The notes under the pieces were generated by a model. The model searched no databases. It saw only the letters and a program-made list of their open reading frames with translations, and was not told where the DNA came from. 46,537 nucleotides of DNA, taken from the NCBI GenBank assembly GCA_902778995.1, contig CACYZW010000055.1, positions 1-46,537 of the forward strand, in the 5' to 3' direction. Below, one piece after another: positions 36,024 through 41,641 of the stretch; positions within the stretch are counted from its first letter, which is position 1, and each line of letters begins with the position of its first letter. Made by a program: the position numbers and the translations under genes. The DNA is from an uncultured Eubacteriales bacterium. Its GTDB lineage: Bacteria; Bacillota; Clostridia; Christensenellales; Aristaeellaceae.

Positions 36024-37163
36024 ATGAAAAACATCAACGTCTACGCGCGCTGCCTGACGCTGCTGCTGGCCGCGCTGATGCTTTCGGGCATGCTGGCAGT
36101 GGCGGAGCCTGCCGCCGAAACCGCAGCGGGGGAGAATCCCTCCTACGACATCATCTATTCCAGCAACAATCCCATCCCCGAAATCGCCGAGCGGGTGCGC
36201 CCGGCCATCGTGCAGCTGAACACCAAGCAGGAGAGCTGGGATCCCGAAACGCGGGTGGCGAAGGTCGAGGAGGTCGGCGGCGGCTCGGCATGCTACATCC
36301 GCAGGATCGAAGGCGACGTCCCCGGCGGCTACATGCTGACCAATTACCATGTGGTCAAGGATGCCGACGCCTATACCGCCCTGTGGCTGGACGGCACCCA
36401 GACCGATTTGGAGCTGGTGGGCTATGACGACGGCTCCGACATCGCGGTGTTGAAATTCTCGGGCGAGGCCCCCGGCGACGCCCAGCCCATTCCCATGGGC
36501 GATTCCGACGCCCTGCGCATCGGCGAGCTGGCCATCATCATCGGCAACCCCGGCACCATGGACGAGGTCTTCTTCGGCAGCGTCACCGCCGGCATCATCT
36601 CCGGCCTGGAGCGCGAGGGCGTCAACGCAGACAATTTCAGCCACAGCATCACCACCATACAGACCGACGCGCCCATCAACGGCGGCAATTCCGGCGGCGC
36701 GCTTCTGAACGCGAAGGGCGAGCTGGTGGGCATTCCCACGCTCAAATACATGACCATCTACGAGGGCATGACCTTCTGCATTCCCATCAGCGTGGTCAAG
36801 GGCTTCATCGACCAGATCATCGACAACGGCAGCGTGGTGCGCCCCCGTATGGGCGTCACCGTCACGTCCATCGACGGGCCCGAGGAGGCCATGCGGCGCT
36901 TTCCGCCCTGCGGCGCGCAGGTGTACAGCGTGGAGCCCGGCACCCCTGCGGACAAGGCGGGCCTGATGGAGAAGGACGTGATCACCATGGCCAACGGCGC
37001 GCGGATCAAGTCCAGCCAGGATATGGTCGCAGCCGTGGACCGCTGCGGCGAGGGCCAGCCGATGGAGCTGACCATCTACCGCTATAAATACGACGCCGAC
37101 GGCAACGTCAAGGGCGGGTACGAGGAATTGCATGTGACGCTGCAGCTGCAGATCATCGATTGA
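36024..37163 (+). CDS. Secreted HtrA/DegP-like serine protease with PDZ domain
   Basis: 379 residues. An N-terminal signal segment (LTLLLAALMLSGMLAVA, about 10-27) precedes a trypsin-like domain with catalytic H109 (LTNYHVVKDADAY), D139 (DDGSDIAVLKF) and S223 (NGGNSGGALLN). A PDZ domain with VEPGTPADKAGLMEKDVITMANG occupies about 275-370. HtrA proteases clear misfolded exported proteins. The N-terminus looks cleavable, unlike the single-anchor HtrA of Bacillus, though an anchor cannot be excluded. GAAAGGA precedes the ATG. It follows the two-component genes with its own promoter. Confidence 0.92.
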   Translation: MKNINVYARCLTLLLAALMLSGMLAVAEPAAETAAGENPSYDIIYSSNNPIPEIAERVRPAIVQLNTKQESWDPETRVAKVEEVGGGSACYIRRIEGDVPGGYMLTNYHVVKDADAYTALWLDGTQTDLELVGYDDGSDIAVLKFSGEAPGDAQPIPMGDSDALRIGELAIIIGNPGTMDEVFFGSVTAGIISGLEREGVNADNFSHSITTIQTDAPINGGNSGGALLNAKGELVGIPTLKYMTIYEGMTFCIPISVVKGFIDQIIDNGSVVRPRMGVTVTSIDGPEEAMRRFPPCGAQVYSVEPGTPADKAGLMEKDVITMANGARIKSSQDMVAAVDRCGEGQPMELTIYRYKYDADGNVKGGYEELHVTLQLQIID

Positions 37164-37322: not shown

Positions 37323-38891
37323 TTATTTCTTAACCACGATGTAGACGTAGGTGCTCTTGCCGTTGGCCGTTGTGACGGTGATCTTCGCCTTGGTTCCCGC
37401 CTTGGCGCTCTTGCTCACCGTTACCTTGCCGTTTTTCACGGTGACGGCCTTCTTATTGCTATTCCAGGTCAGGGTGGTCTTCGCGCCGCTGGGCGACACC
37501 ACGGCCTTCAGCGTCAGCGACTTGCCCCGCTTCAGCGAAAGCGACTGGCCCTTTTTCAGGGTCTTGGTTCCCTTCTTCAGCTTGACGCTCTTGACGACCT
37601 TCACCTTGCTGGGGTCAAAGTCGCTGGTCGCCAGCTTCAGCACGCTCGCCGGGTAGGTTCTGAGCGTAACATCGTCGAATATATATAAAACTTCGCCCGC
37701 GACGGAGTATTGATTGCTGGATTGCGAGGGTTCGACGCCGCACAGGAACGCCTGAGTGAGGCCGCCGTCGACGAAGGTGATGTCCACATGGTAGTTCTTG
37801 CCGTCGCCCATGGTGACGACGTTCCACATGTGCCCCCCGCCGCCGGATCTCTGACGGACATCACCCTCGACGATGTGACTCTGCACACCAGTCGAGAAGG
37901 ACGACAGATCGCACAGGTACTGGAAAGCCTTGGAGTAGCCCTCGCAGACCACCTTGGTGCTGGGATCCCCGTCGAACACCCAGATCAACTGCCAGGGATT
38001 GCCGTAGGGCCAATTGGGATCGGCGGCCGCGTCGTCATTGTAGTCGTTCTCTTTGCAGATGAAATCCCTGTAGCCGCACAGCTTCTTGTAGTCGGAGACC
38101 CCGGCGTACTTCTTCACGACGCTCTTGGCCTTCTTGACGGCGACTTGGGCAGAACCGATCAACTGCGCGTCGGTCTTGAAGACGTAATAATTGCTGGCAT
38201 CGGCTGCGAGGGCGTATTCCTGCGCCACCGGGAACCATATATAGAACCCGTTGTCATAGTCATACCCATATTGGACATAATAGGATATCTTGTCGAACCA
38301 GAACAGATGATAGGGGAAGTCCACCAGAAGCGCGTCGAGGACACTGACAGCTTCTTTATACGCCTCTTTCATGGAAGAATAGGGAACAACGCTCTGGGGA
38401 ATGTAGAACTGGGTGTCGCTCAGGGTTCCCGCAGCCACCTTCTTTATCTGCTTGGCCAGATAATTGTAGGTGTCCGCCGCCACGCCGGTGAGCCTGTCGC
38501 CAACCCAGCCGTTGCGCTGCAGGCCCAGCGTATCCTGCTTGCCAAACAGCATATCGACATAGCCGGCGAACAGGGCGTCGTTGTCCCAGCTGCCCTGGGG
38601 CTGGTAATTGCTGGCAACTCCGCCTTCGGCTGCGCCGTTGTTCTCCACGGCGCCGGCGAGACCGTCGGAAAGGTCGTTTGAAAGGTCGAGGCCGGGCAGA
38701 TCGACGTCGATCCCATCCATGTCGATGCCCGGGTCAAGGGTCAGTCCGCCGTCGTCAGTGGCGATGCCCTCCGGCATCTCCAGAGCTGCGCCGTCGGCCA
38801 GCTCCACGTTCAATTGATCCGCGAAAGCGGGGCATGCCATCGCCAGCAGGGCGACGACGAGCAACCATGCGAGTGCGCGCGCCTTCTTCAT
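37323..38891 (-). CDS. Secreted transglutaminase-like protein with Ig-like C-terminal domain
   Basis: 522 residues. The signal peptide MKKARALAWLLVVALLAMACPAFA is followed by an acidic low-complexity segment (LDPGIDMDGIDVDLPGLDLS). The transglutaminase-like core has the Cys-His-Asp triad as C316 (VVCEGYSKAFQYLC), H354 (GGGGHMWNVVTMG) and D370 (YHVDITFVDG). From about 435 a lysine-rich bacterial Ig-like (BIG2) domain, VKLKKGTKTLKKGQSLSL to the end, probably binds the wall. Prokaryotic members are often peptidases or cross-linkers of surface polypeptides; which applies here is unknown. CGGAGGG marks the start. Confidence 0.88.
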   Translation of the reverse strand: MKKARALAWLLVVALLAMACPAFADQLNVELADGAALEMPEGIATDDGGLTLDPGIDMDGIDVDLPGLDLSNDLSDGLAGAVENNGAAEGGVASNYQPQGSWDNDALFAGYVDMLFGKQDTLGLQRNGWVGDRLTGVAADTYNYLAKQIKKVAAGTLSDTQFYIPQSVVPYSSMKEAYKEAVSVLDALLVDFPYHLFWFDKISYYVQYGYDYDNGFYIWFPVAQEYALAADASNYYVFKTDAQLIGSAQVAVKKAKSVVKKYAGVSDYKKLCGYRDFICKENDYNDDAAADPNWPYGNPWQLIWVFDGDPSTKVVCEGYSKAFQYLCDLSSFSTGVQSHIVEGDVRQRSGGGGHMWNVVTMGDGKNYHVDITFVDGGLTQAFLCGVEPSQSSNQYSVAGEVLYIFDDVTLRTYPASVLKLATSDFDPSKVKVVKSVKLKKGTKTLKKGQSLSLKRGKSLTLKAVVSPSGAKTTLTWNSNKKAVTVKNGKVTVSKSAKAGTKAKITVTTANGKSTYVYIVVKK

Positions 38892-39010: not shown

Positions 39011-39030
39011 GTTCAGTGTGCGTTGTTTCT

Positions 39031-39110
39031 TTAGGAAAACACCGCAAATGTGACCGTTTGCCCGCAGGACGAATCATAACGCATAAATCGATTATGCGGT
39101 ATTTCCTTAA
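39031..39110. mobile_element. MITE-like family A, short internal-deletion copy
   Basis: TTAGGAAAACACCGCA (39031-39046) and TGCGGTATTTCCTTAA (39095-39110) are imperfect inverted ends of an 80-bp element. Its last TTAA is shared with the next copy, so the two abut head to tail and their junction makes a long palindrome. Confidence 0.75.
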
Positions 39111-39266
39111 GGAAACACCGCATAATGCTCATGGCGCATTAGCGGCTGAATTTCAGTCGCCTGCTGCCTGCTGATTTCTTGACTTGCCGCCAGCAAGCCT
39201 TCGAAATCTGCAGTTTGCAATCGACTAAAATTCATCTCGTTACTGCACGACTCGATAAAGCGGGAA
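39107..39266. mobile_element. MITE-like family A, long copy with decayed right end
   Basis: It starts TTAAGGAAACACCGCA and contains both the GCAGTTTGCAATCG segment seen at 28228 and the CGTTACTGCACGACTCGAT segment seen at 24541, so it is the fullest internal version. The right end reads AAGCGGGAAT instead of ATGCGGTATT. A possible ilvB promoter begins at this edge. Confidence 0.75.
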
Positions 39267-39275
39267 TGTTATACT
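39267..39275 (+). promoter_or_regulatory. Extended -10 element before ilvB
   Basis: TGTTATACT (39267-39275) is an extended -10. The matching -35 position (39247-39252) falls inside the MITE remnant and is a poor match. If used, transcription starts about 10 bases before the leader ORF. Confidence 0.45.
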
Positions 39276-39292
39276 TTTTATCAGGAAATCGG

Positions 39293-39379
39293 ATGCGCCC
39301 GCGGGCCTGGACCTGGGACCGGGGGCGCTTTTGGGTTATTGTGATCGTCGACGACAGCGGGGAGGAAACGCCATGCTGA
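39293..39379 (+). CDS. Putative leader peptide of ilvBN
   Basis: A 28-codon frame with AGGA 6 bases before its ATG. Codons 15-19 read GTT ATT GTG ATC GTC, that is Val-Ile-Val-Ile-Val, after an Arg/Trp-rich start (MRPRAWTWDRGRFW). Its stop TGA (39377-39379) overlaps the ilvB start ATG (39373) in the string ATGCTGA. Leader peptides rich in the regulating amino acids are known before ilv operons of enterobacteria (ilvL, ivbL). An inverted pair GCGCCC (39295-39300) and GGGCGC (39323-39328) followed by TTTT lies inside the frame. Whether control would be transcriptional or by coupling is undecided; the frame could also be chance. Confidence 0.45.
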   Translation: MRPRAWTWDRGRFWVIVIVDDSGEETPC

Positions 39380-41076
39380 TGACTGGTGCGCAGATATTGA
39401 TGGAATGCCTGCTGGAGCAGGAGGTGGACACCGTTTTCGGCTTCCCTGGGGGAACGATCATGCACGTCTATGACGAGCTTCTGAACTACCCCGCCATACA
39501 CCACATACTCACGGCCCACGAGCAGGGCGCCTGCCATGCGGCGGACGGCTATGCCCGTTCCACCGGCAGGGTCGGGGTATGCTTCGCCACCTCGGGGCCC
39601 GGGGCGACCAACCTGGTCACCGGCATCGCCACGGCATACATGGATTCCTCTCCGGTGGTCTGCATCTCCTGCAACGTGAGCCTGTCCCTGCTGGGCAAGG
39701 ATTCCTTTCAGGAGGTGGACATCACCGGCGTGACCATGCCCATCACCAAGTGCAATTACCTGGTGCGGGATGTGGGAGACCTGGCCGACACCGTGCGCGA
39801 GGCCTTCGCCATCGCCCGCAGCGGCAGGCCCGGCCCGGTGCTGATCGACATTCCCAGGAACGTGACCCAGGACATGGCCGATTACACGCCGCTGGCCCGG
39901 GACGGACACGGCAAGGTGGGACGGCTGGGCCAGCTGATGAAGCGCTCCAGCCAGAACTTTCGGGCCGCCGAGCCGGATTATCGGGACATCGACATACTCG
40001 TTGACATGATACGCGCCGCCCAGCGGCCCATGGTGATCTGCGGCGGCGGCGTGGTGCGCAGCCGGGCGGACCGGGAATTGGAGACCTTCGCCAACCGCAT
40101 CGACGCCCCCGTGGGCATCACCGTGATGGGCGCGGGCGGCTTTCGGGGGCTGAATCCGCTGGCGACGGGGCTGGTGGGCATGCACGGCAGCCAGGCCAGC
40201 AACATGGCCGTGGACGCCTGCGACCTGCTGATCGCGGTGGGCTGCCGGTTTTCCGACCGGGTGGCGCTCAGGCCCAGGAGCTTCGCCCGCAACGCGAAGG
40301 TGGTGCAGATCGACATCGACCGCAGCGAGATCAACAAGAACGTGGAGACCGATCACCACATCGTCGGCGACGCGAAGCGGGTTCTGGCGCTGCTGAACGA
40401 GCGCCTGGAGCAGATGGACCACGCCAAGTGGAAGGAATATGTGTTTTCCTACAAGACCCAGACGGAGTACGACGAGGCCGCAGATCACATGACCCCCGGC
40501 CAGGTGCTGGACGCCATCGCCCGCATCGTGCCGAACTACACCATATTCGCCACCGACGTGGGCCAGCACCAGATGTGGGCCATACAGCACCTGCATTTCG
40601 AATACTGCGGCCAGCTGGTGACCTCCGGCGGCTACGGCACGATGGGCTTCGGCCTGGGCGCGGCCATTGGGGCCCAGGTGGGCAACCCGGAAATGCCCGT
40701 GGTGCTGATCACCGGCGACGGCAGCTTCCGTATGAACCTGAACGAGCTGTCCACGGTGCAATACTACGGCCTGCCCATCATCGTCGTGCTGTTCAACAAC
40801 GGGACGCTGGGCATGGTGCGCCAGTGGCAGACGCTGTCCTGCAACGGCAGGCACAGCCAGACCACGCTGGATCGCGGCCCGGACTTCGTGAAGCTGGCGG
40901 ATGCCTATGGGATCAAGGGCTTCCGGGTGACGGATGTGACGGAGCTGGAGGCGGCCTTGACGGAGGCCTTCGTGGCCAGGGTTCCCGCAGTGATCGACTG
41001 CGCCATCGACATCGACGAGATGGTGCGGCCCATGGTGGGCGGCGGCAGCCATATCACCAGGTTCATGGTGGATTGA
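39373..41076 (+). CDS. ilvB: Acetolactate synthase, large catalytic subunit
   Basis: 567 residues. It condenses two pyruvates, or pyruvate with 2-oxobutyrate, in the first shared step of valine, leucine and isoleucine synthesis, using ThDP, Mg2+ and FAD. The catalytic Glu is E50 in LTAHEQGACHAADGYARSTG; the central FAD-binding region and the C-terminal ThDP motif GDGSFRMNLNELSTVQYYGLPIIVVLFNN are intact. The anabolic assignment is supported by the regulatory subunit 13 bases downstream. GGGGAGGAAACG decides the start. No ilvC or ilvD is present in the window. Confidence 0.96.
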   Translation: MLMTGAQILMECLLEQEVDTVFGFPGGTIMHVYDELLNYPAIHHILTAHEQGACHAADGYARSTGRVGVCFATSGPGATNLVTGIATAYMDSSPVVCISCNVSLSLLGKDSFQEVDITGVTMPITKCNYLVRDVGDLADTVREAFAIARSGRPGPVLIDIPRNVTQDMADYTPLARDGHGKVGRLGQLMKRSSQNFRAAEPDYRDIDILVDMIRAAQRPMVICGGGVVRSRADRELETFANRIDAPVGITVMGAGGFRGLNPLATGLVGMHGSQASNMAVDACDLLIAVGCRFSDRVALRPRSFARNAKVVQIDIDRSEINKNVETDHHIVGDAKRVLALLNERLEQMDHAKWKEYVFSYKTQTEYDEAADHMTPGQVLDAIARIVPNYTIFATDVGQHQMWAIQHLHFEYCGQLVTSGGYGTMGFGLGAAIGAQVGNPEMPVVLITGDGSFRMNLNELSTVQYYGLPIIVVLFNNGTLGMVRQWQTLSCNGRHSQTTLDRGPDFVKLADAYGIKGFRVTDVTELEAALTEAFVARVPAVIDCAIDIDEMVRPMVGGGSHITRFMVD

Positions 41077-41089
41077 GGAGGCGGCGGCG

Positions 41090-41641
41090 ATGAATGAAAT
41101 CAAGAGGCATACCCTGGCGGTGCTGGTGGACAACGAGGCGGGCGTGCTGTCCCGCGTGGCGCGGCTGTTCTCCGGCAAGGGCTACAACATCGAATCGCTG
41201 GCCGTGGGGACCACCCACGACCCGGCCGTTTCCCGCATCACCATCGAGGTGTTGACCGACGAGAAGCAGGCGGGGCTGATCTGCAGCCAGCTGCGCAAGC
41301 TGATCTGCGTGCATTCGGTCAAGCGGCTGGACGCGGAGCGCACCATCCGGCGGGAGCTGGTGCTGATCAAGGTGTCCGCCTCCACCCACGAGGCGCGCAA
41401 CGAGATCGTACAGATCGCCAGCCTCTTCCACGCGTCCATCATCGACGTGTCCACCGGCTCGCTGACCATCGCCCTGATCGGCGACGAGAGCCAGGCCGAG
41501 ACCATACAGACCCTGCTGGGCGAAATCGGCATCATGGAGCTGGTGCGCACCGGCATGGTGGCCCTGGAGCGCGGCCAGTATACCATCGACGAGCAGACCA
41601 AGGAAAAGGACGAGTTCGATTACGGGAAGAACGTCCTGTGA
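41090..41641 (+). CDS. ilvN: Acetolactate synthase, small regulatory subunit
   Basis: 183 residues. The N-terminal ACT domain HTLAVLVDNEAGVLSRVARLFSGKGYNIESLAVG, with its effector-binding loop, senses valine and activates the large subunit. A second ACT-like C-terminal domain (ELVLIKVSASTHEARNEIVQIA onwards) follows. This is the long form with about 180 residues. GAGGAGGCGG precedes the ATG; 13 bases after ilvB. Confidence 0.95.
   Translation: MNEIKRHTLAVLVDNEAGVLSRVARLFSGKGYNIESLAVGTTHDPAVSRITIEVLTDEKQAGLICSQLRKLICVHSVKRLDAERTIRRELVLIKVSASTHEARNEIVQIASLFHASIIDVSTGSLTIALIGDESQAETIQTLLGEIGIMELVRTGMVALERGQYTIDEQTKEKDEFDYGKNVL

Follow-up and report, generated by a model that had tools for sequence, protein, structure and literature searches.

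Immediately upstream of ilvB in the window, by which we mean the whole 46,537-nucleotide stretch of DNA analyzed here, lies a 28-codon frame that carries five consecutive valine and isoleucine codons, and the question is whether this frame is a leader peptide that adjusts ilvB expression to the supply of branched-chain amino acids (BCAAs). A sequence-only reading had proposed this and had described the locus correctly. The frame and its V-I-V-I-V codons are present, its TGA stop (39377-39379) overlaps the ilvB start, with the ATG at 39373, a plausible ribosome site (AGGAAA, 39283-39288) precedes its own ATG at 39293, and the codon run is placed after the terminator-like stem and its TTTT. The features are listed in Table 1.

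Table 1. Features around ilvB in the window and the leuA attenuator on another contig (C34) of the same genome
Feature	Position	Strand	Basis or remark
HtrA-like protease	36024-37163		
Transglutaminase-related gene, divergent, between HtrA-like protease and ilvB	37326-38891	-	NF045980 E 1.4e-12, below its cut-off
TATACT, extended -10 (TGTTATACT), 19 nt 5′ of hairpin; -35 (ACGACT) poor	39270..39275	+	promoter score 8/12
28-codon frame ATG...TGA, MRPRAWTWDRGRFWVIVIVDDSGEETPC	39293..39379	+	translation; probably incidental
Hairpin GCGCCCGCGGGCC / GGACCGGGGGCGC, interpreted as the terminator (segment 3:4) from a putatively lost attenuator	39295..39328	+	inverted repeat, fold, model R1
T tract, TTTT then GGGTTATT; modest intrinsic-terminator tail	39329..39332	+	sequence, fold
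V-I-V-I-V codons GTT ATT GTG ATC GTC	39335..39349	+	in fast-changing spacer from hairpin to ilvB
ilvB ribosome-binding site GGGGAGGAAA	39359..39368	+	sequence
ilvB, acetolactate synthase large subunit	39373..41076	+	TIGR00118 E 2.8e-200
ilvN/ilvH, acetolactate synthase small subunit, next operon gene	41090..41641	+	TIGR00119 E 7.6e-46
leuA attenuator: leader MMNLFALYILGLILSIILLLTQLGIMPKVVPECGRARS, segment 1 TTAGCATTATTCT, segment 2 GGAATAATGCCGAAAGTC, terminator ACCCGCGACCTGACTTTCAGGTCGCGGGT + T tract	C34:10486-10684 (L172:1462-1660)		

The V/I run is unusual, yet it was chosen by eye out of 46 kb. Runs of at least five V/I codons occurred three times in the 93,070 six-frame codons of the window, and runs of at least five V/I/L codons 16 times; at the window's rate, a V/I/L run is expected in approximately 1 of 200 frames of 28 codons. 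The frame need not start at the ATG at 39293, because it is also open further 5′, up to a TTG at 39179. The sequence-only reading had held that related genomes lacking the frame or its V/I codons would speak against a leader peptide, and this is what the genus revealed. The comparison comprised 28 ilvB upstream rows including the window, scanned for frames of at least eight codons starting within 160 nt; two rows were from one genome (L019 and L030, G004), L015 and L019 had only 130 and 68 nt 5′ of ilvB, respectively, and a second fragment of G027 (L029) and a distant paralogue (L031) were left out. The search of the genus found ilvB in 27 of its 28 genomes, and the relatives compared were other species, the nearest ilvB being 87% identical to that of the window. 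An upstream frame with at least four consecutive V/I/L codons was found in the window alone (1/28 rows). In the three closest relatives (L003, L004, and L005), the same ATG reads ATG CGC CCG CGG GTC TGA, that is, five codons and then a stop; L003 and L004 possess a 27-codon frame over the hairpin that is in another register, ends on the ilvB start, and carries no V/I run, and L005 has no frame over the hairpin that ends there. The window's own frame over the hairpin and its V/I run were thus both absent from the other 27 rows. Frames of at least eight codons ending on the ilvB start occurred in 15 of the 28 rows, window included, so an overlapping stop is cheap and not distinctive. The closest relatives lack a conserved frame overlapping the ilvB start, as would be expected of a translationally coupled uORF. 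Because the V/I run lies 3′ of the terminator, stalling there cannot decide, as it does in classical attenuation, whether the terminator or the antiterminator forms; by simple arithmetic, a ribosome stalled on the run would reach toward the ilvB ribosome site and would be more likely to impede ilvB than to induce it. A leader peptide at 39293 was therefore rejected for both its lack of conservation and its geometry. The five-codon frame was likewise rejected as a conserved minimal leader, being found only in L003-L005. Among the 28 rows, the 28-codon frame and its V/I run look private to the window's genome, and the frame is probably incidental, having arisen in the variable spacer between the hairpin and ilvB.

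Within 39293-39379, conservation falls on the hairpin and not on the frame. Eight genus ilvB rows, window included, carry a hairpin and T tract just 5′ of ilvB. The window's hairpin folds with -23.5 kcal/mol, and the whole stretch 39240-39400 folds just slightly better than shuffles (z -1.17). In the seven related rows, 94.0% of cells were paired, five pairs were changed on both sides, and the covariation was 0.381 versus 0.215 in shuffles, none of 500 being as high; three of these rows are near-identical to each other, and two more likewise. A covariance model built from the seven rows with the window left out (R1) matched the window at 39291-39336 with 33.1 bits (E 1.6e-6), and no other site in the genome gave a match at E up to 1 among the 150 of 840 first-look candidates that were scored. 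Outside the training set, R1 also matched contig C89 of G019 (40.8 bits) near the contig end, and the ilvB contig of G019 also begins close to its own end. The hairpin was thus located before ilvB, or in G019 at the contig end, in 9 of the 28 genus genomes. The T tract of the genus hairpins has 3-6 T; the window hairpin is one base shorter than those of L003-L005, and its T tract is short. On the ilvB tree, the hairpin is scattered across several genus subgroups, and by labels assigned by eye 18 of the 28 rows carry neither hairpin nor attenuator, indicating that the hairpin is dispensable. An alternative pairing of GCCGG, 5′ of the hairpin, with its 3′ arm was inconsistent in the genus by eye and was rejected.

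The hairpin is accompanied by a predicted promoter in the genus. In eight of the nine hairpin rows, the promoter scored 11-12/12 with a TGn motif, a level reached by 0/500 shuffles in each row; these relatives' promoters comprise TTGACA, 17-18 nt, and TGnTATAAT or TGnTATACT, located 19-32 nt before the hairpin. The window's score was reached by 324 of 500 shuffles, and its TGTTATACT sits where the eight relatives have their promoters. Judged from the TATACT, transcription would start at about 39280-39283, placing an intrinsic-terminator-like hairpin of predicted activity between a promoter recognized by position and the first BCAA gene. As separate observations, the divergent intergenic region contains a palindrome near 39091-39126 with 18-nt arms that are 94% complementary (ATTATGCGGTATTTCCTT/AAGGAAACACCGCATAAT), a possible operator, part of which recurs 76 nt upstream as an 82% copy (sites 39019-39046 and 39091-39126). 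Several members of the genus have a frame with a common C terminus, HtrA-like by eye, that ends 69-124 nt 5′ of ilvB.

Searches for other regulators gave little at this locus. Rfam at cut-off detected nothing near ilvB, and in the window only a tRNA far away. A T-box, a ppGpp riboswitch, and other Rfam families at ilvB were rejected, as gathering matches were absent and low-threshold matches lay far below cut-off. The sequence-only reading had seen no T-box, in agreement with the absence of RF00230 matches before ilvB and on the whole contig. T-boxes commonly control amino acid genes in Firmicutes and are present in the window's genome (G000), with 18 matches at E up to 0.001, five of them above cut-off, but not at the window's ilvB. 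The best T-box of the genome (107 bits, C83:7508-7754, L163) lies directly 5′ of a LeuA-family gene at C83:7838, the product of which is 33% identical to the LeuA of contig C34. CodY (PF06018) had no match in the assembly, which is 83% complete.

Related lineages carry what looks like a complete ribosome-mediated BCAA attenuator at the same place. From 375 ilvB loci in GTDB genomes, the best 80, which are the nearest ilvB relatives and no random sample, were examined for the joint occurrence of a segment 2 motif, a downstream partner holding CTTT, and an overlapping frame with at least six I/L/V in 10 codons. This combination was found at 32 of the 80 loci, in 0/80 reverse complements, and in 2/1600 dinucleotide shuffles. 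By this joint rule, a leader ORF with a BCAA run spans the start of segment 2 at the 32 loci, for example, MLISRVFDNSILGVLSIILVRLIKLENSAESYGLQCNA in L084 and MHFAYALNSIIIVSIILVLVVKNAKNSAKSYALSCKAMEF in L120; taken alone, the I/L/V density was reached by at most 5 of 100 shuffles at 21 of them and by more, up to 64, at 11. Alignment of the 32 loci (A3) revealed three mutually exclusive helices. Helix 2:3 (CTGAAAGTT with AACTTTCAG) had 96.5% of cells paired, and one of its pairs is G-C in 16 rows and A-U in 14, differing between close loci (G-C in L081 versus A-U in L082; G-C in L098 versus A-U in L092). Helix 1:2 was 93.2% paired, and helix 3:4 was 83.5% paired, 12 of its 15 pairs showing changes on both sides. 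The covariation score of each helix exceeded 500/500 shuffles; for helix 2:3, neither changes on both sides (260/500 shuffles as high) nor further pair types (472/500) were above shuffles. Segments paired better with their own partners than with foreign ones (of nine pairs, 8.84 versus 8.46 for 2:3 and 8.16 versus 7.77 for 1:2), and the own mean was reached in 0/10,000 permutations for both helices. Since the 32 loci were preselected on 2:3 pairing, its pairing level is partly built in, and covariation is the better evidence. Helix 1:2 was weak, with at most 7 of 9 pairs, in eight loci (L083, L087, L092, L094, L098, L109, L111, and L114), and these were left out of a model of the 5′ module (R2), which was built from the other 24 attenuators and performs weakly on the L088/L092 type.

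On these features, the relatives would translate a short leader peptide that contains a run of Ile, Leu, and Val. With an ample supply of charged BCAA-tRNAs, segment 1 (GCATTATTCT, located among the BCAA codons) would pair with segment 2 (AATAGTGCT), so that the terminator 3:4 would form and ilvB would be off; a ribosome stalled on these codons would instead leave segment 2 (CTGAAAGTT) to pair with AACTTTCAG, which lies in the loop of the terminator, and ilvB would be transcribed. With this predicted switching, the element appears to belong to the known class of ribosome-mediated BCAA attenuators, and Rfam 15 has no family that matches it at gathering score: at 20 of the relatives' ilvB loci, 18 of them with the full rule combination, only one tRNA was detected. 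The sequence-only reading had assigned such leaders to enterobacteria, a premise now out of date. According to excerpts of the respective papers, Rli60 of Listeria monocytogenes is a ribosome-mediated attenuator of ilvD-leu, as shown by mutants (PMC5864092), and a leader attenuator of Staphylococcus aureus ilvD is supported (PMC5794164). Compared by the descriptions in these excerpts, Rli60 shares with the relatives' ilvB leader a BCAA-rich peptide, four segments with 2:3 versus 3:4 pairing, and downstream BCAA genes, but differs in the gene (ilvD), the 13-residue peptide, and a CodY layer, whereas the window keeps segment 3:4 only; the S. aureus leader likewise has a 26-residue Ile/Leu-rich peptide, a terminator, and an antiterminator in a Gram-positive BCAA operon, but differs in gene order and a CodY layer. 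uORF attenuation of ilvB itself has been described for Corynebacterium (PMC10272879), and Corynebacterium ilvB-II, ilvB-OMG, and the Leptospira ilvB motif (PMC10272879, PMC11109978, and PMC8632094) each comprise a BCAA-codon-rich uORF upstream of ilvB, ilvB-II also having a terminator stem like the clostridial element; these three are from other bacteria and were compared only through the Rfam 15 scan at gathering scores. In searches of the open-license PMC literature, no paper was recognized as describing the clostridial ilvB attenuator.

The genus hairpin shows kinship with the terminators of these attenuators. Over the 80 ilvB loci, R1 matched the ilvB-proximal hairpins of L088, L092, L098, L082, and L111 (E 2e-9 to 3.7e-5), and leader frames lie upstream of the matched hairpins in these five loci. 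Of the 32 loci with the full rule combination, R1 detected 4 at E up to 1e-4, gave weaker matches to another seven (L087, L086, L084, L085, L081, L114, and L083), and missed 21 at E up to 5; L134 was matched at 0.003 and has no attenuator. The best match outside the genus, L088, fails the rule because its segment 2 is degenerate, and its leader score was reached by 30/100 shuffles. As R1 misses most of the 32 loci, homology rests on the nearer genera, the position, and the shared 5′ arm CCTGCARGTCTGA. R1 had a match at E up to 1 somewhere in 23 of the 28 genus genomes, and nine further genus matches inspected among the weaker ones (L041-L045 and L055-L058) do not precede ilvB and resemble ordinary 3′ terminators by eye, indicating that R1 is not specific by score alone. 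Similarly, 31 of 300 family genomes had a match at E up to 1e-4; among the 21 other-genus family loci inspected, 5 lie before ilvB (L142, L143, L148, L149, and L154) and 16 lie elsewhere and resemble ordinary 3′ terminators. The R1 matches away from ilvB, in genus and family, had E values of 1e-6 to 1e-4. In the ilvB trees, the genus forms one clade; one of these trees, which is not rooted by itself, places it beside the attenuator-bearing L081/L082 with a support of 82. From this evidence we infer that the genus hairpin and the attenuator terminator are homologous, and by sequence and position the hairpin is a putative transcription terminator linked with branched-chain attenuation.

What the genus locus lacks is the sensing half. 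R2 found nothing at E up to 0.1 on the window's contig C55 (150 candidates per genome scored), and in both strands of the 28 genus genomes its only matches at this level were a leuA site in G000 and in G011. The loop motif CTTT, needed for 2:3 pairing, was absent from 9/9 genus hairpins, and the stems stay paired. The window has no segment 2 that would pair with the terminator loop, and no leader ORF with regulatory codons before the terminator, its codon run following the stem in a frame that is not conserved. As two defining features, the leader before the terminator and the antiterminator, are missing, the window site is best called a remnant terminator. We thus read the hairpin, with a probability of roughly 0.72, as the terminator arm of a BCAA attenuator that is kept complete in related lineages and has lost its sensing half here, the 28-codon frame being incidental. 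Of the branched-chain attenuation proposed by the sequence-only reading, the mechanism class stands, since the terminator appears to belong with such a system, and the element that it had chosen, the frame, does not. The simplest account is that the leader peptide and segment 2 were lost and the terminator was retained, the promoter now lying 19-32 nt before the hairpin; an internal deletion joining promoter and hairpin would fit the order promoter-leader-terminator at L207. At most, the remaining hairpin would be a constant terminator close to the promoter, reducing ilvB transcription with no sensing of BCAAs. The direction of loss, the activity of promoter and terminator, and the lack of regulation at the window are deductions from sequence. 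Within 330 nt 5′ of ilvB, L149 (G175) has a promoter-like sequence, a short frame poor in BCAA codons (MCRFSTSMPVRLRRAALRL..., by eye), and a hairpin without a CTTT loop; this leader is possibly an intermediate in attenuator decay.

A complete attenuator occurs in the same genome before leuA. R2 matched C34:10525-10583 (E 2.4e-6), and the gene 3′ of the attenuator is leuA by its TIGR00973 match. By eye and from translations, leuA is followed by leuC, leuD, leuB, TRAP-transporter, and ilvD-like genes, and a recombinase-like gene lies upstream of the attenuator. The leuA stretch is 97.4% identical to that of G011 over 10.6 kb, and leuA itself is 99% identical in G011 and G012, the G012 contig ending inside the leader of leuA, whereas the other 25 genomes gave distant matches only (35% or less); the leuA operon was therefore either recently transferred or represents shared assembly contamination. 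The R2-type module is patchy in its spread, with matches in 1 of 391 genomes class-wide (G000 itself; about 13 candidates per genome scored), in 3 of 40 genomes of a family sample including G000, and in 1 of 41 of a phylum sample, G000 only.

Several other explanations of the hairpin were weighed. The promoter-proximal terminator might still be regulated by an RNA-binding protein or trans factor that reads its 5′ arm and purine-G mismatch: in eight relatives (L039 being outside the alignment), a near-perfect promoter immediately precedes a covarying hairpin whose 5′ arm is shared, and a strong promoter closed by a fixed terminator is odd without relief. We consider this unlikely, as the loop varies between subclades (CTGATACTGGG, CAAACATACAG, and CTGGACCTGGG), descent from an attenuator also explains the conserved arm, and the 18 genus rows without the hairpin manage without it. 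Translation of any short frame over the hairpin could instead melt the terminator and couple to ilvB, a constitutive translation-dependent antitermination. In favor of this view, the window, L003, and L004 each have a frame of 27-28 codons that runs across the hairpin and stops on the ilvB start, but the registers over the hairpin differ, L005 has no such frame, inspection by eye showed no ribosome site ahead of the ATG in L003 and L004, and overlapping stops are frequent in the genus, which makes this quite improbable. A stem at the extreme 5′ end of an mRNA can protect the transcript, and for this reason we also considered a mere 5′ mRNA stabilizer, or a chance terminator, with no tie to attenuation, in keeping with the R1 matches to ordinary terminators and with the 21 loci that R1 misses. 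The T tract kept in the genus hairpins and their sequence kinship with ilvB terminators at the same place in attenuator-bearing genera leave little room for this explanation. That the 28-codon frame is a true BCAA leader of new design, in which stalling after the terminator keeps the stem open or alters coupling to ilvB, is highly improbable, because the rarity of its V/I run, its AGGAAA, and its span from the terminator to the ilvB start are outweighed by its absence from the other 27 rows, the stop after five codons in the closest relatives, a run 3′ of the terminator on which stalling would crowd the ilvB ribosome site, and a predicted transcript with only 10-13 nt of 5′ end before the ATG.

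For the window, reading the hairpin as a remnant terminator removes a tempting but probably wrong interpretation of a Val/Ile codon run. For the wider group, the comparison points to several clostridial lineages of gut and rumen in which ilvB is preceded by a BCAA leader attenuator with three covarying, mutually exclusive helices. A doubtful extension is that deletion has shrunk the attenuator in this rumen genus to a leaderless stub, consisting of a strong promoter, a terminator within about 20-30 nt, and ilvB, that may be switched by a factor reading the hairpin; if true, this would be a BCAA control element that needs no peptide, no aptamer, and no antiterminator strand. The loss of the sensing half from a retained terminator suggests a route by which such attenuators may decay, in which the stem of the terminator persists after the sensor has gone and the loop sequence for antitermination is lost.
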